From Pseudomonadota bacterium (GTDB taxonomy: Bacteria; Pseudomonadota; Gammaproteobacteria; Burkholderiales; Sulfuricellaceae), in assembly GCA_021801705.1 (NCBI GenBank), contig JAJYXP010000072.1, forward strand, positions 1-64,000: a stretch of DNA of 64,000 nt. Reading direction: 5' to 3'. The translations under genes and the position numbers were made by a program. Under the pieces are notes generated by a model that made no database searches, was not told the DNA's origin, and worked only from the letters and a program-made list of their open reading frames with translations. This document shows positions 1,681 to 59,062 of the stretch, in pieces. Each line of letters opens with the position of its first letter. Position 1 is the stretch's first letter.

Positions 1681-2562
1681 ATGCCGACCTTTCAGGAAAT
1701 CATCCTCACGCTGCAACACTACTGGGCCGAGCGCGGTTGCGTGCTGCTGCAGCCCTACGACATGGAAATGGGCGCCGGCACCTTCCATACCGCCACTTTT
1801 CTCCGCGCGCTCGGACCGGAGCCGTGGCGCGCCGCCTACGTGCAGCCTTCGCGCCGCCCCAAGGACGGGCGCTACGGCGAGAACCCCAACCGCCTGCAGC
1901 ATTACTATCAGTACCAGGTGGTGCTGAAGCCCTCCCCGGACAATATTCAGGAGTTGTACCTCGACAGTTTGCGCACTCTGGGCATCGACCCGACCGTACA
2001 CGACGTCCGCTTCGTCGAGGACGACTGGGAATCGCCCACCCTCGGCGCCTGGGGCCTGGGCTGGGAAGTGTGGCTGAACGGCATGGAAGTGACCCAGTTC
2101 ACCTACTTCCAGCAGGTCGGCGGCCTCGATTGCAAGCCGGTGCTGGGCGAGATCACCTACGGCCTGGAGCGGCTGGCGATGTATTTGCAGGGCGTGGAGA
2201 ACGTGTTCGACCTGGTCTGGACGCCGGGCGTGACCTATGGCGACGTCTACCACCAGAACGAGGTGGAGCAGTCCAGATACAATTTCGAGCACAGCAACGT
2301 CAACTGGCTGTTCGAGCAGTTCAACATGTGCGAGTCCGAGGCCGGGCGCCTGATGGAGGCGGGCTTGCCGCTGCCGGGTTTCGAGCAGGTAATGAAGTGC
2401 TCCCATGCCTTCAACCTGCTGGACGCGCGCGGCGCGATCTCGGTCACCGAGCGCGCCGCCTACATCGGCCGGGTGCGGGCGCTGGCGCGGCAGGTGGCGC
2501 AAAGCTATTACGATGCGCGGGAAGCGCTGGGTTTCCCGATGCTGAAACACCAGGAAAAATAA
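1681..2562 (+). CDS. glyQ: Glycyl-tRNA synthetase alpha subunit
   Basis: 293 residues, the normal length for the alpha chain of the bacterial alpha2beta2 class II enzyme that charges tRNA-Gly. Recognisable signatures are [20 protein letters not shown] near residue 20, [20 protein letters not shown] near 60, and [20 protein letters not shown] near 125. The alpha chain carries the aminoacyl-adenylate site. glyS follows, separated only by a palindromic repeat, so this is the usual glyQS operon. A 98-bp gap separates it from the CapA-like gene; GGGGTTTTTCCCC at about 1617-1629 could be a small hairpin. Confidence 0.98.
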
Positions 2563-2631
2563 CCGCAAAGGCGCGAAGACGCAAAGATTTCAATTCTCTT
2601 TAATCTTTAGCGCCTTTGCGCCTTTGCGGTA
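2562..2631. repeat. ACCGCAAAGG-type hairpin between glyQ and glyS
   Basis: The left arm starts ACCGCAAAGGCGCGAAGAC immediately after the glyQ stop. The right arm GCGCCTTTGCGCCTTTGCGG is its near-complement across a short A/T-rich loop. The right arm ends about 17 bp before the glyS start. Confidence 0.9.
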
Positions 2632-5290: not shown

Positions 5291-5444
5291 TTAACCACGA
5301 ATTTGCACGAATGTTCACGAATATTCACGAATGCCATAAAGGGTCAAGTAATCAGACGGTCGCTGATGGAGCGAGCCAAACGGGCTGCACTCTCCCCGAT
5401 TTTATTCGTGTTCATTCGCGTTCATTCGTGCCATTCGTGGTTAA
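5291..5444. repeat. CACGAAT-type long inverted repeat
   Basis: The left arm begins TTAACCACGAATTTGCACGA and continues with further ACGAAT motifs to about 5332. The right arm 5401-5444 ends TTCGTGCCATTCGTGGTTAA. The loop of about 60 bp is not shared with the other copies. It separates gmhB from plsC. Confidence 0.85.
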
Positions 5445-10693: not shown

Positions 10694-10765
10694 ACCACAG
10701 AGACACAGAGACACAGAGATAGAACAGATTATGCATTTTCCTCTGTGTCTCTGTGTCTCTGTGGT
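10694..10765. repeat. CCACAGAGACACAGAG-type hairpin
   Basis: Left arm ACCACAGAGACACAGAGACA, right arm CTCTGTGTCTCTGTGTCTCT followed by GTGGT, loop of about 22 bp. The right arm overlaps the pdxA 3' end and encodes the tail [13 protein letters not shown] second copy lies at 29736-29817. Confidence 0.92.
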
Positions 10766-17049: not shown

Positions 17050-17809
<760 letters not shown>

Positions 17810-17819
17810 AACACAAGCC

Positions 17820-18115
17820 AGCCACGGATGAACACAGATGAACACGGATAAACCTTAAAACCGTAATTAACCACGAATGACACGAATGTTCACGAATGAA
17901 CACAAATAGTTAACAAGAAATATCGTCTCACCCAACAGGTGAATCGGGTGAATTTCGTTAATTCTTTGATTATTCGTGAACATTCGTGTGCTATTCGTGT
18001 AAATTCGTGGTTAATCGCTTTTTTCAGGATAAAACCTCCCATCAAGAATTCGTGTTAATCCGTGGCTAAATGTTTAGCTTCCGATTCGTGAACATTCGTG
18101 TCATTCGTGGTCAAA
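17820..18115. repeat. Nested inverted repeats: CACGAAT element inside CCACGGAT arms
   Basis: Outer arms are GCCACGGATGAACACAGATG (17821) and TCGTGTTAATCCGTGGCT (about 18049-18066). Inside, 17851-18030 is a copy of the 178-bp CACGAAT element in reverse orientation (AACCGTAATTAACCACGAAT ... GGTTAATCGCTTTTTTCAGG). A further TTCGTGTCATTCGTGG piece ends at about 18110. No gene is present in this 314-bp gap. Confidence 0.88.
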
Positions 18116-28177: not shown

Positions 28178-28350
28178 AACCGCAAAGGCGCAAAGAACGC
28201 AAAGGAAAAACAATGTGTTATCGGAATCTACCCAGTCACCGGATAGGTGAATACCCGATGGATTTTATGTCCTTGTTTTGCGAGTTGGGCGATAAAGCCG
28301 CCCATCCCTGCGAACCCCGTTTCTTTGCGCCTTCGCGTCTTTGCGGTTAA
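28178..28350. repeat. ACCGCAAAGG-type long hairpin with a shared inner segment
   Basis: Left arm AACCGCAAAGGCGCAAAGAA (28178), right arm CTTTGCGCCTTCGCGTCTTT then GCGGTTAA (ends 28350). The loop holds GGTGAATACC-type inverted bits and TTTTGCGAGTTGGGCGATAA with CCCATCCCTGCGAACCCC, which recurs at 7362-7407. Confidence 0.88.
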
Positions 28351-33882: not shown

Positions 33883-33966
33883 TTAACCGCTAAGGACGCG
33901 AGGGTTCGCAAAGGAAAACCCATTTTATGGGTTACCTCGCGTTCCTTTGCGTCCCTTGCGGTGAAA
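33883..33966. repeat. ACCGCNAAGG-type hairpin between rpe and gph
   Basis: Left arm TTAACCGCTAAGGACGCGAG (33883), right arm GTTCCTTTGCGTCCCTTGCG ending GTGAAA. The right-arm tail GCGGTGAAAGAGG is the only ribosome-site-like sequence before the gph TTG start. Confidence 0.9.
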
Positions 33967-33976
33967 GAGGTTTTCA

Positions 33977-34666
33977 TTGAAAAATATTTTCCCATTGGCC
34001 GTCAAAGCCGTCGTCATCGACCTTGACGGCACGCTGCTGGACACCGCGCCGGACATCGCCGAGGCGGCGCAGCGCATGCTGCGCGATCTGGATATGGCGC
34101 CAGTCGATCTGGAAAAAATCCGGTCCTACATCGGCAACGGCATCGCCAACCTGGTGAAGCGGGCGCTGACCGGCGAAATGCACGGCAAGCCGGACGACGC
34201 GCTGTTTGCCCGAGCGCTGCCGCAGTTCGAGAAGCATTACGACGAAGTGCTGTACCGCGAAACCCGGCCTTATCCTGGCGTCATGGAAGGGCTGAATGCC
34301 CTGCGCGATGCCGGTTACACCCTGGTCTGCATCACCAACAAGGCGCAGCGCTTCACCCTGCCGCTCTTGGCGGCGATGGGTATGAAGGATTATTTCGACC
34401 TGATCCTGTCCGGCGACAGCCTGCCGCGCAAGAAGCCTGATCCCCTGCCGCTGCGTTATGCCGCGATCTACTATGAGGCCGAGCCCAAGGACCTGCTGCT
34501 GGTGGGCGACTCCCTGAACGACAGCCAGGCCGCCCGCGCCGCCGGTTGTCCCGTGGTCCTGCTGCCTTACGGCTACAACGGCGGCAAGGACGTGCGCGAG
34601 CAGGATTGCGATGCGGTGATCGAAAGCCTGCCGGAAGTGCTGAAGCTGATCAGAAAGGCAAATTAA
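33977..34666 (+). CDS. gph: Phosphoglycolate phosphatase
   Basis: 229 residues from a TTG start six bases after AAAGAGG. HAD fold: VVIDLDGTLLDTAPDIAEAA near residue 12, TNKAQRF near 117 (Ser/Thr motif as ITNK), RKKPDPLPL near 152 (Lys) and LVGDSLNDSQAARAAGCP near 176. It removes 2-phosphoglycolate. The position between rpe and trpE is conserved in betaproteobacteria. Confidence 0.94.
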   Translation: MKNIFPLAVKAVVIDLDGTLLDTAPDIAEAAQRMLRDLDMAPVDLEKIRSYIGNGIANLVKRALTGEMHGKPDDALFARALPQFEKHYDEVLYRETRPYPGVMEGLNALRDAGYTLVCITNKAQRFTLPLLAAMGMKDYFDLILSGDSLPRKKPDPLPLRYAAIYYEAEPKDLLLVGDSLNDSQAARAAGCPVVLLPYGYNGGKDVREQDCDAVIESLPEVLKLIRKAN

Positions 34667-34800
34667 CCGCAAAGGACGCAAAGGTTCGCAAGGGAAACCT
34701 AAAAACCATCATGGCGAGACACTATTTTCAAGCTTTGTGGCCGCACATTGCTTTTGTTAAAGCCTTCCCTTGCGAACCTTTGCGTCCTTTGCGGTGAAAG
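34663..34800. repeat. ACCGCAAAGGACGCAAAGG-type hairpin between gph and trpE
   Basis: Left arm TTAACCGCAAAGGACGCAAA then GGTTCGCAAGGG (34663-34694); right arm CCCTTGCGAACCTTTGCGTC then CTTTGCGGTGAAAG, a near-perfect complement ending at 34800. It starts inside the gph stop codon and ends five bases before the trpE ATG. Confidence 0.95.
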
Positions 34801-36287: not shown

Positions 36288-36367
36288 TTACCGCAAGGGA
36301 CGCAAAGGTACGCAAAGGAATTCGGTTAAGGTTTCCTTCGCGTACCTTTGCGTCCTTAGCGGTGAAA
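36288..36367. repeat. ACCGCAAGGGACGC-type hairpin between trpE and trpG
   Basis: Left arm TTACCGCAAGGGACGCAAAG, right arm GCGTACCTTTGCGTCCTTAG then CGGTGAAA. The tail GGTGAAAGGG serves as the ribosome-site-like sequence for trpG. Confidence 0.93.
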
Positions 36368-36950: not shown

Positions 36951-36991
36951 ACCCCTCTCCCCTTGCGGGAGAGGGTTGGGGAGAGGGGTGG
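36951..36991. repeat. CTCTCCC hairpin arm upstream of the DUF559 gene
   Basis: ACCCCTCTCCCCTTGCGGGA then GAGGGTTGGGGAGAGGGGTGG. It starts at the trpG stop and ends three bases before the DUF559 ATG. Confidence 0.9.
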
Positions 36992-36994
36992 TGA

Positions 36995-37429
36995 ATGTCG
37001 GCGAAATTGACAAAAGTTGCACGCCTGCTGCGGAAAAGCTCAACTGACACCGAAAGGTTGTTATGGCAGCACCTACGGGCTGGTCGATTTTGTGGGCATA
37101 AATTCAAAAGACAGCAACCGCTCGGCAACTATGTGGTCGATTTTGTATGCTTCGAGGCCAGGCTGATTATAGAACTGGATGGCGGGCAACATGCAGATCA
37201 AGCGGATGCTGATAAAATTCGCGGCCAATGGTTGAATGGCCAAGGGTTTCGAGTCTTAAGATTCTGGAACAATGAAGTATTAACGAACTTGGAGGGGGTT
37301 ATGCAGTGCATGCATGCGGCGCTGTCACCCTCTCCCCGGCCCTCCCCCGTCAAGGGGGAGGGTGAAGGCCATCAAGGATGCTCTATTCCTACCCTCTTTG
37401 CGGGGGCGGGGGGAGAGGAGGAAATATAA
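36995..37429 (+). CDS. DUF559 endonuclease-like protein nested in CTCTCCC repeats
   Basis: 144 residues. LRKSSTDTERLLWQHLRAGR near 12-31, FKRQQPLGNYVVDFVCFEAR near 36-55 and LIIELDGGQHADQADADKIR near 56-75 are the DUF559 core, related to Vsr-like PD-(D/E)XK nucleases (Asp in VVDF, Glu in IELDG, QH). The last 35 residues ([15 protein letters not shown] onward) are translated repeat. The stop overlaps the trpD start (TAATG). G+C and codon use are lower than in the trp genes, which marks it as an insertion in the operon. Its true function is unknown. Confidence 0.85.
   Translation: MSAKLTKVARLLRKSSTDTERLLWQHLRAGRFCGHKFKRQQPLGNYVVDFVCFEARLIIELDGGQHADQADADKIRGQWLNGQGFRVLRFWNNEVLTNLEGVMQCMHAALSPSPRPSPVKGEGEGHQGCSIPTLFAGAGGEEEI
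37325..37421. repeat. CTCTCCC hairpin arms downstream of the DUF559 core
   Basis: CACCCTCTCCCCGGCCCTCC then CCCGTCAAGGGGGAGGGTGA (37325-37364), and TACCCTCTTTGCGGGGGCGG then GGGGAGAGGAGG (37390-37421). The terminal GGAGAGGAGG is the ribosome site of trpD. Confidence 0.88.
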
Positions 37430-38457
37430 TGACACCGCAAGCCGCATTAACCGCGCTGCTCGAAAAGCGCGACCTCACCCGCGACGAGATGCTGTCGGTC
37501 ATGCATCAGATCATGGGCGGGGAGCTGACCCCGGTGCAGATTGCCGGCATCCTTGTTGCGCTGCGTGCCAAGGGCGAAACCGTGGCCGAGATCGCCGCCG
37601 CTGCCGAGGTGATGCGCGAGCTCTCGACCAAGGTGCCGGTCGGTGCCGAAGCGCACCTGGTGGATACCTGCGGTACCGGCGGCGACGGCGTTCATACCTT
37701 CAATATCTCCACTGCCTCCGCGCTGGTTGCGGCAGCGGCGGGCGTGAAAGTGGCCAAGCACGGCGGCCGCTCCGTGTCCTCTACCTGCGGCAGCGCCGAC
37801 GTGCTCGAGCTGCTGGGCGTCAACGTCAACCTCACTCCCGATCAGGTGGCGCAATCCATCCACGAAATCGGTGTCGGCTTCATGTTCGCCCCCAACCACC
37901 ACAGCGCGATGAGATATGCCGCGCCGGTACGGCGCGAGCTGGGCGTGCGCACATTGTTCAACCTGCTCGGCCCGCTCACCAATCCGGCCGGGGCAAAAAA
38001 CCAGGTGATGGGCGTGTTCCGCAAGGATTTGTGCTATCCGCTCGCCGAGGCGCTGAAATCGCTCGGCGCGAACCATGTCATGGTGGTGCACGGCGGCGAC
38101 GGCATGGACGAGATCACCATCACCACCGAAACCCATGTCGCCGAACTGAAGGATGGGGGTGTGATGGAATACGCCGTCGACCCCGAAGCCTTCGGCATGA
38201 AACTCGGGTCGGCCGATGAGCTCAAGGCGCACGACCCGGAACAGGCCAAGGCCAGGCTGCTGTCCGTGCTGGATAACGCACCGGGCGCCGCGCGCGACAT
38301 CGTCGCCCTCAACGCCGGTGCCGCGATCTACGTCGGCGGCGTGGCGCCGACGCTGGAGGAGGGGGTGAAGAAGGCGCTCCAGGTGATTGCCAGCGGCGAG
38401 GCCAAGGCCAGGCTGGAACAGTTGATTGCTTTTTCCAATCGATTTAAAACAACTTGA
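37429..38457 (+). CDS. trpD: Anthranilate phosphoribosyltransferase
   Basis: 342 residues from the ATG at 37429, preceded by GAGGAGG. Motifs: MSVMHQIMGGELTPVQIAGI near 20, DTCGTGGDGVHTFNISTA near 79 (PRPP binding), KHGGRSVSSTCGSADVLE near 107 and VMVVHGGDGMDEI near 215. It transfers phosphoribose to anthranilate. The DUF559 cassette separates it from trpG and the GxxExxY cassette from trpC. Confidence 0.97.
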   Translation: MTPQAALTALLEKRDLTRDEMLSVMHQIMGGELTPVQIAGILVALRAKGETVAEIAAAAEVMRELSTKVPVGAEAHLVDTCGTGGDGVHTFNISTASALVAAAAGVKVAKHGGRSVSSTCGSADVLELLGVNVNLTPDQVAQSIHEIGVGFMFAPNHHSAMRYAAPVRRELGVRTLFNLLGPLTNPAGAKNQVMGVFRKDLCYPLAEALKSLGANHVMVVHGGDGMDEITITTETHVAELKDGGVMEYAVDPEAFGMKLGSADELKAHDPEQAKARLLSVLDNAPGAARDIVALNAGAAIYVGGVAPTLEEGVKKALQVIASGEAKARLEQLIAFSNRFKTT

Positions 38458-38487
38458 ACCGCAAAGGACGCGAAGGTACGCAAGGGA
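38457..38487. repeat. Left arm of the GxxExxY cassette
   Basis: AACCGCAAAGGACGCGAAGG followed by TACGCAAGGGA. It begins at the last base of the trpD stop and ends immediately before the GxxExxY ATG. It pairs with 38873-38908. Confidence 0.95.
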
Positions 38488-38871
38488 ATGCAAGATCAAG
38501 AAGAACGGGTCGGCAAGCAGATAATAGCTGAGGCCATGAAGGTTCATAGTGCTTTGGGCTGCGGGTTGTTGGAAAGTGCATATGAGGTGTGCCTTGCCTA
38601 CGAATTGGAGAAAAATGGGCTTGAGGTTAAACGGCAAGTAGCCCTTCCGGTTGTATATGATGGTTTAAAGCTCGATGCCGGCTATCGGCTTGATTTGCTG
38701 GTTGGTGATTGCGTTATCGTTGAATTAAAGGCGGTTGAAAAGTTGGCGCCCATTCATACTGCCCAGTTATTGAGCTATCTAAAATTAAGCGGCCATAAGC
38801 TTGGTTTTGTTTTGAATTTCAATGTCATCCATATGCGTGACGGCATCAAGCGGATCGTGAATGGTTTATAA
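38488..38871 (+). CDS. GxxExxY-family PD-(D/E)XK nuclease-like protein inside a hairpin element
   Basis: 127 residues. The diagnostic motif is GLLESAYEVCLAYELEKNG near residues 28-46 (G-LL-E-SA-Y). KLDAGYRLDLLVGDCVIVELKAVEKL near 70-95 gives the nuclease-type D...E-x-K core, followed by HTAQLLSYLKLSGHKLGFVLNF and a basic tail. Family members are widespread, often multicopy, and unassigned. The gene fills the loop of a long inverted repeat almost exactly (arm, ATG; stop, one base, arm). G+C is lower than in trpD or trpC, which points to transfer. Confidence 0.9.
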   Translation: MQDQEERVGKQIIAEAMKVHSALGCGLLESAYEVCLAYELEKNGLEVKRQVALPVVYDGLKLDAGYRLDLLVGDCVIVELKAVEKLAPIHTAQLLSYLKLSGHKLGFVLNFNVIHMRDGIKRIVNGL

Positions 38872-38872
38872 G

Positions 38873-38908
38873 TTTTCCTTTGCGTACCTTCGCGTCCTTT
38901 GCGGTGAG
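38873..38908. repeat. Right arm of the GxxExxY cassette
   Basis: TTTTCCTTTGCGTACCTTCG then CGTCCTTTGCGGTGA. It complements the left arm over about 26 uninterrupted bases. A shorter similar piece TGCGTTCTCTGCGGTGAGA follows to 38940 and reaches the trpC ribosome site. Confidence 0.95.
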
Positions 38909-38947
38909 TTATTTTTTCCTGTGCGTTCTCTGCGGTGAGATCTGAAC

Positions 38948-39829
38948 ATGTCCGACATCCTGCAAAAAATCCTTGAAGTAAAGCAAGCCGAAGTCGCCTG
39001 CGCGACGGCAAAAAAATCCTACGCCGCCATCCGCGCCGAGGCGGAAGCCATGCCGCCCGCCCGCGATTTCACCGGCGCCATTCGTGCCAAAATCAACGCG
39101 GGCAAGCCTGCCGTGATTGCCGAAATCAAAAAGGCCAGCCCCTCCAAAGGCGTGATCCGGGAAAATTTCGATCCGGCCGCGATAGCGAAAAGCTACGAGC
39201 AGCACGGCGCAGCCTGTCTGTCGGTGCTCACCGACGTGCAGTTTTTCCAGGGCAGCAAGCAGCATCTTGCCGAAGCGCGCGCCGCCTGCGCTCTGCCGGT
39301 GCTGCGCAAGGATTTCATGATCGATCCCTACCAGGTGTGCCGGGCACGAACGATAGGCGCCGACGCCATTCTGCTGATCGTGGCGGCGTTCACCCTCTCC
39401 CCAGCCCTCCCCCGTCAAGGGGGAGGGGGCAAAACCCCCTCTCCCCTGGTGGGAGAGGGCTGGGGAGAGGGGGGGGGCGAATTTGACCTCGCCAAAATGC
39501 GGGAACTGGAAACCCTCGCCCACGAACTCGGCATGGCGGTGCTGGTGGAAAGCCACGATGCCGCCGAGCTTGATCTGGCGCTTGAACTCCAGACCCCGCT
39601 GATCGGCATCAACAACCGCAACCTGCGCAGCTTCGAAACCCGCCTGCAAACCACCCTCGACCTGTTGCCGCGCATCCCGTCCGACCGCATCGCGATCACC
39701 GAAAGCGGCATCCTCCGTCCAGCCGACGTCCAGTTCATGCGCGGCCACGGCGTCAACGCCTTTCTCGTCGGCGAAGCCTTCATGCGGGCGGAGGATCCGG
39801 GGGTGGAGCTGGGGCGGCTGTTCCGCTAA
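38948..39829 (+). CDS. trpC: Indole-3-glycerol-phosphate synthase with an inserted repeat
   Basis: 293 residues against about 260 usual. Core motifs: [20 protein letters not shown] near 57 (catalytic Lys), [13 protein letters not shown] near 92, [21 protein letters not shown] near 119, [13 protein letters not shown] near 218 and IAITESGI near 248. Between LLIVAA and [17 protein letters not shown] about 31 residues ([18 protein letters not shown] and on) are encoded by a CTCTCCC hairpin inserted in frame, at the loop after beta-strand 4. Activity may survive as the insert lies in a surface loop, but this is unproven. Confidence 0.94.
39390..39475 (+). repeat. CTCTCCC hairpin inserted in frame in trpC
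   Basis: Arms CACCCTCTCCCCAGCCCTCC (39390) and GAGGGCTGGGGAGAGGGGG (to about 39472), with inner CCCCCGTCAAGGGGGAGGG and CCCCTCTCCCCTGGTGGGAG hairpins. The insert keeps the reading frame. Confidence 0.95.
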
Positions 39830-48481: not shown

Positions 48482-48626
48482 CTAGTAGTCAGTCATATTG
48501 AAACCGGTGGACAATCTCGTCATTCCGGCGAAAGCCGGAATCCAGAAAAATCAACAACCTGGACACCGGCTTTCGCCGGTGTGACGGTTCAACTCATCCA
48601 TGCTTTTCACCGTGACTGACTACTAG
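48482..48626 (-). repeat. 145-bp CTAG inverted-repeat element, copy A
   Basis: Ends CTAGTAGTCAGTCATATTGA and CACCGTGACTGACTACTAG, with inner stems ATTCCGGCGAAAGCCGGAAT and ACACCGGCTTTCGCCGGTGT. Its last CTAG contains the stop codon of the nitroreductase gene. In the remaining part of this 343-bp gap, 48355-48480, I see no gene. Confidence 0.95.
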
Positions 48627-51384: not shown

Positions 51385-51507
51385 AAAACGCAAAGGCGCA
51401 AAGGGCGCAAAGTCAAGGCCTTGAAGTTGCGGGCGGCACGATCACAACCTGCGGGCTATGTTGCCGTCCAAGTTTTTTCTTTGCGTTATTTGCGCCTTTG
51501 CGTTTCC
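51385..51507. repeat. ACGCAAAGGCGCAAAGG-type hairpin
   Basis: Left arm AAAACGCAAAGGCGCAAAGG, right arm TCTTTGCGTTATTTGCGCCT then TTGCGTTT, loop about 65 bp. It belongs to the class that carries GxxExxY at 38457-38908. Confidence 0.88.
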
Positions 51508-52672: not shown

Positions 52673-52817
52673 CTAGTAGTCAGTCATATTGAAACCGGTG
52701 GACAATCTCGTCATTCCGGCGAAAGCCGGAATCCAGAAAAATCAACAACCTGGACACCGGCTTTCGCCGGTGTGACGGTTCAACTCATCCATGCTTTTCC
52801 CCGTGACTGACTACTAG
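52673..52817 (-). repeat. 145-bp CTAG inverted-repeat element, copy B
   Basis: Same orientation as copy A and nearly the same sequence (one change seen near its right end, TTTTCCCC for TTTTCACC). Its terminal CTAG at 52814-52817 contains the rtcA stop codon. Confidence 0.95.
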
Positions 52818-53860: not shown

Positions 53861-53942
53861 GCCCACCTCACGGCGAATGCAACACTACCAGTGTAGCAGC
53901 CGCCCCGGCGTGATCTAGAATGAAGCTATAAAAAGCAGTTCA

Positions 53943-54254
53943 GCCACGGATTAACACAGATACACACGGATTATCAATGAGTTACATTTCGCGCCCCGCG
54001 CACCTTTCGGGTATATGGCATATTTAACACAACACGTTGTTTTATCCTGAAAAAAGCGATTAACCACGAATTTACACGAATAGAACACGAATGTTCACGA
54101 ATAATCAAAGAATTAACGAAATTCACCCGATTCACCTGTTGGGTGAGCCGATATTTGTTGTTAACTATTTGTGTTCATTCGTGAACATTCGTGTCATTCG
54201 TGGTTAATTACGGTTTTTAGGTTTATCTGTGTAAATCCGTGTCCATCCGTGGCT
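53943..54254. repeat. CACGAAT element nested in CCACGGAT arms
   Basis: Outer arms AGCCACGGATTAACACAGAT (53942) and TCCGTGTCCATCCGTGGCT (54236-54254). Inside, 54044-54232 is a plus-orientation copy of the 178-bp CACGAAT element (ATCCTGAAAAAAGCGATTAA ... TTACGGTTTTTAGGTT). The 486-bp rtcA-dinB gap has no gene. Confidence 0.9.
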
Positions 54255-54346
54255 AAATAGCGGCTTTATGATGAAATAACGAACCTTGCCGGAGAATGCC
54301 GTGAACGCCTTGATAAGCAGCCGCAACCAGTGACGGGCCATATCCG

Positions 54347-55968: not shown

Positions 55969-56109
55969 TAGTCAGTCACGGTGAAAAGCATGGATGAGTT
56001 GAACCGTCACACCGGCGAAAGCCGGTGTCCAGGTTGTTGATTTTTCTGGATTCCGGCTTTCGCCGGAATGACGAGATTGTCCACCGGTTTCAATATGACT
56101 GACTACTAG
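55965..56109 (+). repeat. 145-bp CTAG inverted-repeat element, copy C
   Basis: Opposite orientation to copies A and B. Its first CTAG (55965-55968) includes the stop of the upstream gene. The hairpin ATTCCGGCTTTCGCCGGAAT at 56050-56069, followed by GA then CGAGATTG, is the site equivalent to the group II intron insertion at 95/96. Confidence 0.95.
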
Positions 56110-58917: not shown

Positions 58918-59062
58918 CTAGTAGTCAGTCACGGTGAAAAGCATGGATGAGTTGAACCGTCACACCGGCGAAAGCCGGTGTCCAGGTTGTTGATTTTTCT
59001 GGATTCCGGCTTTCGCCGGAATGACGAGATTGTCCACCGGTTTCAATATGACTGACTACTAG
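58918..59062 (+). repeat. 145-bp CTAG inverted-repeat element, copy D, with a partial fifth end
   Basis: Full copy in the orientation of copy C, beginning seven bases after the preceding stop. It is followed directly by CTAGTAGTCACGGTGAAAGC (59059 on), the start of another copy that breaks off by about 59088, sharing one CTAG. The rest of this 319-bp gap is A/T-rich and should hold the chemoreceptor promoter. Confidence 0.93.

Follow-up and report, generated by a model that had tools for sequence, protein, structure and literature searches.

Inverted arms around a GxxExxY nuclease gene in the trpD-trpC gap and their gene-free hairpins: a possible homing-like element

Introduction

Why does a small nuclease gene lie between trpD and trpC, in the loop of a hairpin whose arms also occur without any gene? 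The question is raised by a stretch of 64,000 nucleotides (hereafter the window, meaning the whole stretch of DNA analysed) from the genome that we label G000. A preliminary description of this DNA proposed that the gene, a member of the GxxExxY family, is the cargo and possibly the mobilising enzyme of a repeat class, and that the empty hairpins are its non-autonomous derivatives, by analogy with MITEs and transposases or with RAYT and REP. The arm sequences were not found in the full-text literature that we searched, and the passage of PMC8934634 that names the family makes no mention of arms. Here, we describe the unit, its relatives in other genomes, and the explanations that may account for it.

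Results

The unit in the trpD-trpC gap

The unit consists of a GxxExxY gene between two inverted arms (Table 1). These arms, each 31 nt long and 97% complementary, pair without interruption over positions 1-26, in agreement with the roughly 26 pairs given in the preliminary description; the distances given there between gene and arms were right to within one to three bases, as the A of the start codon belongs to the left arm and the right arm starts 3 bases past the stop. We found three GxxExxY genes in G000, each of them armed, with arms of the classes CGCAAAGG, CACGAATG, and CACAAAAA; the window unit is the single gene-bearing unit of class CGCAAAGG in this genome. In both G000 and its relative G011, an apparent second right arm of another class adjoins the right arm of the unit, and the remnant in the window is probably what is left of an earlier hairpin at the junction.

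Table 1. Positions of the unit and of related features in the window.
Feature	Position	Strand	Remarks
Gene-free hairpin, CGCAAAGGCG sub-type	2562-2631	.	sequence reading
Gene-free hairpin, CGCAAAGGCG sub-type	28178-28350	.	sequence reading
Gene-free hairpin, window-unit arm class	33886-33962	.	5' of gph; gene on the other side presumably rpe
Gene-free hairpin, window-unit arm class	34663-34798	.	gph-trpE gap; arms 34 nt, 97%
Gene-free hairpin, window-unit arm class	36290-36363	.	trpE-trpG gap
DUF559 ORF	36995-37429		between trpG and trpD; inverted repeat 36953-37362, CCCTCTCCC type
Near-identical tract shared with G006, enclosing the unit	38431-38946	.	2 substitutions, 1 indel; trpD flank about 87%
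Left arm	38458-38488	+	ACCGCAAAGG-ACGCGAAGG-TACGCAAGGGAA, three tandem units, directly 3' of trpD stop (38455-38457)
GxxExxY gene, 127 aa, predicted PD-(D/E)XK nuclease	38488-38871	+	TIGR04256 148 bits (cut-off 35), PF13366 146.3 bits (cut-off 22)
Right arm	38875-38905	-	inverted copy of left arm, one mismatch
Right-arm remnant, other class (CGCAGAGA)	38918-38936	-	alone, without left arm
Gene-free hairpin, CGCAAAGGCG sub-type	51386-51505	.	arms 27 nt, 89%

The protein carries the residues expected of a PD-(D/E)XK nuclease, a conserved D, an ExK, and a following Q in the core fold: D62, E72, K74, and Q86 are invariant in 25 of 25 sequences. Of five AlphaFold models, the best reached a pLDDT of 93.5, and three had mean pLDDT values of 56-65. 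The best model matched SSO0001, which we take to be a Cas4 protein, with a Z of 9.9 (rmsd 3.1, 97 aligned), and Hjc with a Z of 7.5 (rmsd 3.3, 85 aligned), where a Z under 8 may reflect just a common arrangement. The closest folds are mostly those of DNA-acting nucleases, and the domain of the homing endonuclease I-Bth0305I appears among the weak Foldseek matches (rank 19, E 0.13). A PDB search gave no sequence relative of the window protein at E<=0.001, a single chain at E 0.044 being not meaningful, and at this threshold PDDEXK_3 was the only domain in Pfam and GxxExxY the only one in NCBIfam; neither collection detected a transposase domain, including that of HUH tyrosine transposases. The GxxExxY protein is thus predicted to have a conserved Cas4/Hjc-like PD-(D/E)XK fold.

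Gene-free hairpins with the same arms

The preliminary description listed six gene-free places with the same arm type. All six read as hairpins of the window unit's kind, and three of them (those at 2562, 28178, and 51385) turned out to belong to a CGCAAAGGCG sub-type. With up to 3 mismatches allowed, the 19-mer arm was found 10 times in the window, where 0.01 matches were expected, and 134 times in the genome as a whole (2.84 Mb), compared with 4 times for the reversed pattern; it matched the hairpin at 28178 on one arm only and left those at 2562 and 51385 unmatched. Among the matches listed, many of the 134 stand as plus/minus pairs, and these together with the window hold at least 50 distinct gene-free hairpins with window-type arms. 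The gene's arms do not differ from the empty hairpins of its own genome; a difference would have spoken against the proposal. The loops of the empty hairpins are short and mostly unrelated, with 24 of 820 loop pairs clearly alike (loops of at least 20 nt).

We found no clear signal of target duplication of 2-6 nt at 49 hairpins of this genome in three registers: the best values were 0.20 against 0.14 expected for 2 nt and 0.14 against 0.11 for 3 nt, in one register only, and there was none for 4-6 nt. Nor was there left-right covariation within copies in this genome (arm likeness 0.805 within and 0.803 between copies). In the gene-bearing arms, read on the sense strand, mismatches that keep a G-U pair are about as frequent as A-C mismatches (145 versus 141). 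Because the two kinds are equal and covariation within copies is absent, arm pairing is seemingly not what is selected, and RNA-level pairing was rejected as the selected feature; the arms resemble pairs of recognition arrays in duplex DNA. We also considered a mismatch of the base just outside ACC/GGT, which is the same on both arms in 2 of 49 gene-free hairpins of this genome (about 17 expected). As a general feature of the element this was rejected, since gene-bearing loci show excess sameness instead (37 of the 72 loci with ACC starts placeable on both sides; 25 expected).

Several further hairpins were noted. In G001, G003, G008, and G010 (L097, L099, L102, and L111), the hairpin loop between gph and trpE holds an apparent trp leader peptide, with Trp codons near TGGCGATGG; the arms, which belong to three classes, are in frame and supply its start. 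The loop at this site in G000 looks inverted, by eye, relative to G006 and G011. Inverted repeats that have this type of unit and arms of other classes (CACGAATG, CACAGAG, and CACGGAT) lie at 17867-18114, 5305-5431, 10694-10765, and 53939-54257 of the window. Four hairpins of CGTCATTCCGGCG type lie at 48518-48586, 52709-52777, 56005-56073, and 58958-59026, and this type is also nested in loops of CGCAAAGG hairpins (L272, L277).

Armed GxxExxY genes in many phyla

Inverted flanking arms, called at a flank score of at least 28, were found at 118 of 137 GxxExxY loci and in 16 of 1128 shifted windows; the association of gene and arms is firm, and the possibility that most such genes lack arms, which would have refuted the view of the gene as cargo of a repeat class, was not borne out. 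By sample, arms were present at 27 of 28 loci from relatives (29 matches minus the fragment L048), 26 of 29 from a phylum-wide draw (from a longer match list, best matches first), and 65 of 80 from many phyla (the best 80 of 572 matches in a search seeded with proteins like the window's). The shifted-window controls gave 15 of 909 for the 80 many-phyla loci and 1 of 219 for the 57 loci of the first two samples (real arms in 53 of 57). The many-phyla records, mostly metagenome assemblies, include titles such as Methanosarcinales, Nostoc, Chloroflexi, Planctomycetota, Bacteroidetes, and Acidobacteria. By eye, most of the 19 loci below the score still have arm units on at least one side, some of the 19 sit at contig ends, and no arm units were seen at L175 and L224. 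Each arm is a row of tandem units, for the most part spaced 8-10 bp, and a CRCNNR unit is present in both arms at 111 of the 118 armed loci.

With the window protein as the sole tblastn query, which reaches only fairly close relatives, none of the 50,697 phage records gave a match; 8 of the 72,556 plasmid records did, and all 8 are typed as non-mobilizable. On these results, carriage by phages or plasmids was rejected for the window protein and its fairly close relatives.

Arm class follows protein type

The preliminary description named co-variation of arm and protein subtype as support for its claim, and the two do vary together. Across 114 loci (arm score at least 30 and at least 95 residues), protein distance and arm similarity are correlated with a rho of -0.33, the lowest of 500 permutations being -0.14. 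The relation holds across phyla: 4113 cross-phylum pairs, with phylum labels assigned by hand from record titles, gave a rho of -0.275, which none of 1000 permutations reached and which was also unmatched when arms were permuted within phyla only.

Arm copy number points the same way, with exceptions. When CGCAAAGG arms were counted in the family's 22 genomes, allowing up to 2 mismatches, the highest numbers were those of G006 (166), G011 (114), and G000 (99), exactly the three with a gene of this arm class; among the rest, G019 has 83 without a gene, the others have 0-37, and the count by this pattern is 0 in G012, where the gene carries arms of CGCAAAGGCG type. For CACGGGG arms, G021 leads the 22 genomes (154), with G017 third (74), both with a gene of that class; G001, with 116, ranks second and has no GxxExxY gene. 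These rankings ignore kinship, and in all three CGCAAAGG genomes the unit sits at one shared junction. The exceptions, G019 and G001, which have many arms of a class and no GxxExxY match, are 89% and 85% complete. Enrichment of arms of the gene's own class in its surroundings (up to 10 kb), relative to the flanks in other genomes, is suggestive only: it was seen at p<=0.05 in 19 of 56 loci and was weak overall (median p 0.37, Wilcoxon p 0.067).

Empty, filled, and reused junctions

Relatives without the unit exist. Among the 18 family genomes scanned, trpD and trpC adjoin or overlap (gap of -8 to +4 nt) in eight, G012-G019. G000 and G011 carry the CGCAAAGG unit at this junction, G006 likewise carries it 3' of trpD, and G008 has a different GxxExxY unit with CGCRGAGG arms. 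Gene-free CACAGAG hairpins occupy the junction in G005 and G010, a decayed one in G003, and the right half only in G002, at a contig end. In G021, the hairpin is of CACGGGGA type, the class of the arms of this genome's own gene, L057; G004 and G007 hold a small two-gene module that we read as toxin-antitoxin-like. Whether the arms predate the gene by unrelated events, which would also have counted against the proposal, receives a mixed answer, because other arm classes occur, as hairpins or remnants, at this junction in relatives and next to the unit. The transporter ATPase-permease junction, where G000 has its second GxxExxY paralogue, shows similar states: among the 15 loci surveyed, seven were classified, namely units with different arms in G000 and G003, a bare junction in G005, G006, G010, and G011, and a gene-free hairpin in G020, and some of the other eight hold other palindromes.

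Among the 137 loci, trpD lies directly upstream of the GxxExxY gene in 23 and trpC also downstream in 21, the remaining two ending at contig edges; this share is inflated because the sampling favoured proteins like the window's, best matches first. By hand, we grouped the 23 into 10 beta loci and 13 others, the latter including two contigs titled Zetaproteobacteria. TrpD and GxxExxY distances are uncorrelated in the group of 13 (rho -0.005), and rho is 0.45 in the beta group and 0.63 over all 23, with mean between-group distances of 0.52 for TrpD and 0.42 for GxxExxY; given the value in the beta group, vertical descent also contributes. Other shared junctions, named by reading the flank translations, are ribF-ileS (5 loci), pilB-pilC (3, one in a planctomycete), rarA-like-serS (3), and ATPase-permease (3). 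The ribF-ileS loci fall into apparently separate lineages of the GxxExxY tree, which has low resolution (116 columns, with 71 of its 134 inner branches open) and whose well-supported branches are compatible with one origin.

Local exchange, purifying selection, and broken copies

Between the species G000 and G006, trpD is 87% identical (870 of 998 positions, bins 37400-38399), and the 516 nt at 38431-38946 differ by two substitutions and one indel, the unit itself being 99.6% identical; past 38946, four mismatches follow in 43 nt up to the end of the G006 contig. As near-identity spans the unit and only 27 and 41 nt of its flanks, next to a trpD at 87%, the unit looks as if it was exchanged on its own, with the caveat that 131 bases separate the gene match from the end of the G006 contig and that this genome is listed with 6% contamination. 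A similar contrast is seen between L123 and L172 (92-98% over the unit, about 63-88% in most flanking 60-nt bins), and none was found in the pairs L046/L052 and L047/L057. In L182/L227 and L170/L227, homology runs roughly from arm to arm with none beyond, the flanks being unrelated. The gene in G000 and G011 has diverged with a dS of 0.50 and a dN of 0.019; the unit is therefore not simply frozen, and its protein is under purifying selection.

Partial or broken GxxExxY copies also lie between inverted arms (score at least 28) in 7 of 11 cases, as a deletion origin of the empty hairpins would predict and in line with the idea that they are derivatives. These include L302 (internal deletion), L303 (a 39-residue remnant), and L299 (frame-broken); in L298, another of the seven, the arms point outward.

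Two further gene families between arms

DUF559, which we take to be a nuclease family with a Vsr-like fold, and S23-type four-helix genes (TIGR02436) have an anatomy like that of GxxExxY, each with its own repeat type. Inverted arms, most of them of CCCTCTCCC type, bound the DUF559 gene at 26 of 30 fetched loci from relatives and turn up in 1 of 115 shifted windows. For S23-type genes, inverted arms were found at 19 of 28 loci (30 loci, L356-L385, minus the clipped L374 and L383, rRNA context left aside) and in 0 of 112 shifted windows, their arms being tandem, mostly GTGAGTAG-like units.

The window's own DUF559 ORF (Table 1) is overlapped at its end by the right arm of its inverted repeat. 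A gene-free CCCTCTCCC-type hairpin lies in frame inside trpC at 39393-39471; most family relatives are without it, judging by a split of their TrpC match around residues 151/180, and G002, G005, and G008 have an apparent insertion at that site. A hairpin with AGTCCTGAGT units at 17051-17139 resembles the arms around S23-type genes.

Discussion

Three sets of observations bear on the question posed by this locus. GxxExxY genes are widely bounded by inverted arms whose class covaries with the protein across phyla; orthologous junctions occur both empty and filled, with local replacement-like tracts; and broken copies persist between arms, and the intact gene is under purifying selection. The reading that we favour, and to which we give even chances, is that gene and arms form a compact selfish homing-like element, with the empty hairpins as its non-autonomous derivatives. 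The arms, as arrays of short units, would mark the ends of the element and be the DNA recognised by its own type of nuclease. The Cas4/Hjc-like PD-(D/E)XK nuclease would nick or cut the junction, or a related hairpin resident there, and host recombination would then copy the gene-bearing unit in, along with short pieces of its flanks, in the manner of homing. Where internal deletion removed the gene and spared the arms, these could still be acted on in trans, which would give rise to dispersed empty hairpins. That the nuclease recognises the arms and starts the move is what we infer from these patterns, and so would be any route to wholly new sites. Homing or gene conversion is favoured over free transposition because units recur at the same junctions with short replacement-like tracts.

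Two alternatives are unlikely, and to about the same degree. In the first, the unit would transpose as a single strand in the manner of a REPtron, its nuclease acting on the single-stranded DNA hairpin at replication forks and moving empty hairpins in trans, as is thought for REPs and TnpA-REP. The anatomy of one gene, many dispersed palindromes, and a class match between them is that of REP and RAYT, and the lack of a clear target duplication also fits; however, PDDEXK_3 is the sole Pfam domain in place of an HUH tyrosine transposase, the want of covariation within copies suggests that a folded form is not selected, and the 27 and 41 nt of flank in the G000/G006 tract favour recombination. 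In the second, the nuclease would be a passenger, perhaps with a role in defence or addiction, and its repeat would owe its movement to another agent or its spread to recombination alone. The excess of gene-free CGCAAAGG hairpins over the one gene-bearing unit of this class would fit, as would the genomes with many arms and no gene and the DUF559 and S23-type genes in other repeat classes, which could make inverted arrays a general vehicle. Yet GxxExxY, DUF559, and S23-type genes differ from one another in repeat type, the arm class of GxxExxY tracks the protein subtype, and the scarcity of matches to the window protein in phage and plasmid records would be unusual for defence cargo.

An element acting at the RNA level, with arms that fold and are processed in the transcript so that DNA cutting is irrelevant to its spread, is very improbable. 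IVS/S23 elements have the form of a hairpin, and units of the kind described here are placed inside operons. A small ORF in an inverted-repeat element is also what PMC4990558 describes for IVS/S23. Against this, mismatches that keep G-U pairs are no commoner than those that break pairing, pairs do not covary, and the closest folds are mostly those of DNA-acting nucleases. Chance or ordinary terminators, although palindromes are plentiful in bacterial genomes, have next to no probability and are already refuted by the arm counts, in the genome as against the reversed pattern and at the loci as against shifted windows.

Should the homing-like reading hold, repeat families can be driven by small DNA-cutting enzymes with no transposase involved, and trpD-trpC and similar conserved junctions in operons serve as homing sites. 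An orphan nuclease family (GxxExxY, PF13366, PDDEXK_3), rarely named in the literature that we searched, would gain a likely role, and its armed units would offer an origin for repeats seen in many phyla; the element would also account for arm-encoded protein tails and leader-peptide starts. The reading predicts that a GxxExxY protein binds or cuts its cognate arms. More broadly, and with a probability that we put somewhat below even, these units may represent an undescribed kind of element in bacteria and archaea: a minimal unit, with a small protein between inverted short-unit arrays and no transposase, that spreads into intergenic gaps through recombination triggered by a nuclease and leaves scattered empty hairpins behind. 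GxxExxY, DUF559 (with CCCTCTCCC arms), and S23-type genes (with GTGAGTAG-like arms) would be its branches, and a large part of the short palindromes in these genomes would derive from them.

Among known systems, the likeness of Cas4 and Hjc nucleases to GxxExxY is one of fold only. The 23S rRNA IVS with its S23 ORF is likewise a small ORF within an inverted-repeat element, whereas the GxxExxY unit has another protein family and another repeat type, sits between genes (here trpD and trpC) instead of in 23S rRNA, and bears no trace of selection at the RNA level. With MITEs and their autonomous transposons, the unit shares terminal inverted repeats and internally deleted derivatives that keep both ends, as in most of the armed broken copies (e.g. 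L302; the arms of L298 face outward). The comparison with MITEs and transposases made in the preliminary description nevertheless fits poorly, because there is no clear target duplication and no transposase domain; the empty loops are also mostly unrelated.

Homing endonuclease genes come closer. Free-standing ones include PD-(D/E)XK or Vsr-like types, and they share with our units the reuse of one conserved junction (trpD-trpC, in a biased sample), tracts of apparent local replacement, and a patchy distribution that is in part non-vertical. Unlike most of them, the GxxExxY unit lies outside introns, inteins, and coding sequences, and it is bounded by inverted arms that also stand gene-free at dozens of sites. 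The system of REP/REPIN and RAYT (TnpA-REP), in which protein and palindrome co-evolve according to PMC8266576, likewise ties a protein family to a class of short dispersed palindromes. This half of the earlier analogy stands, as palindromes here are class-matched to the resident protein (with G001 and G019 as exceptions, and kinship ignored), and the half that concerns the enzyme does not: GxxExxY is a PD-(D/E)XK protein and RAYT an HUH transposase. The GxxExxY gene is, in addition, bounded by full-length arms built as short-unit arrays, with replacement-like tracts at fixed junctions. Without the enzyme that defines a REPtron, the unit would nonetheless work like a REPtron or a homing gene.
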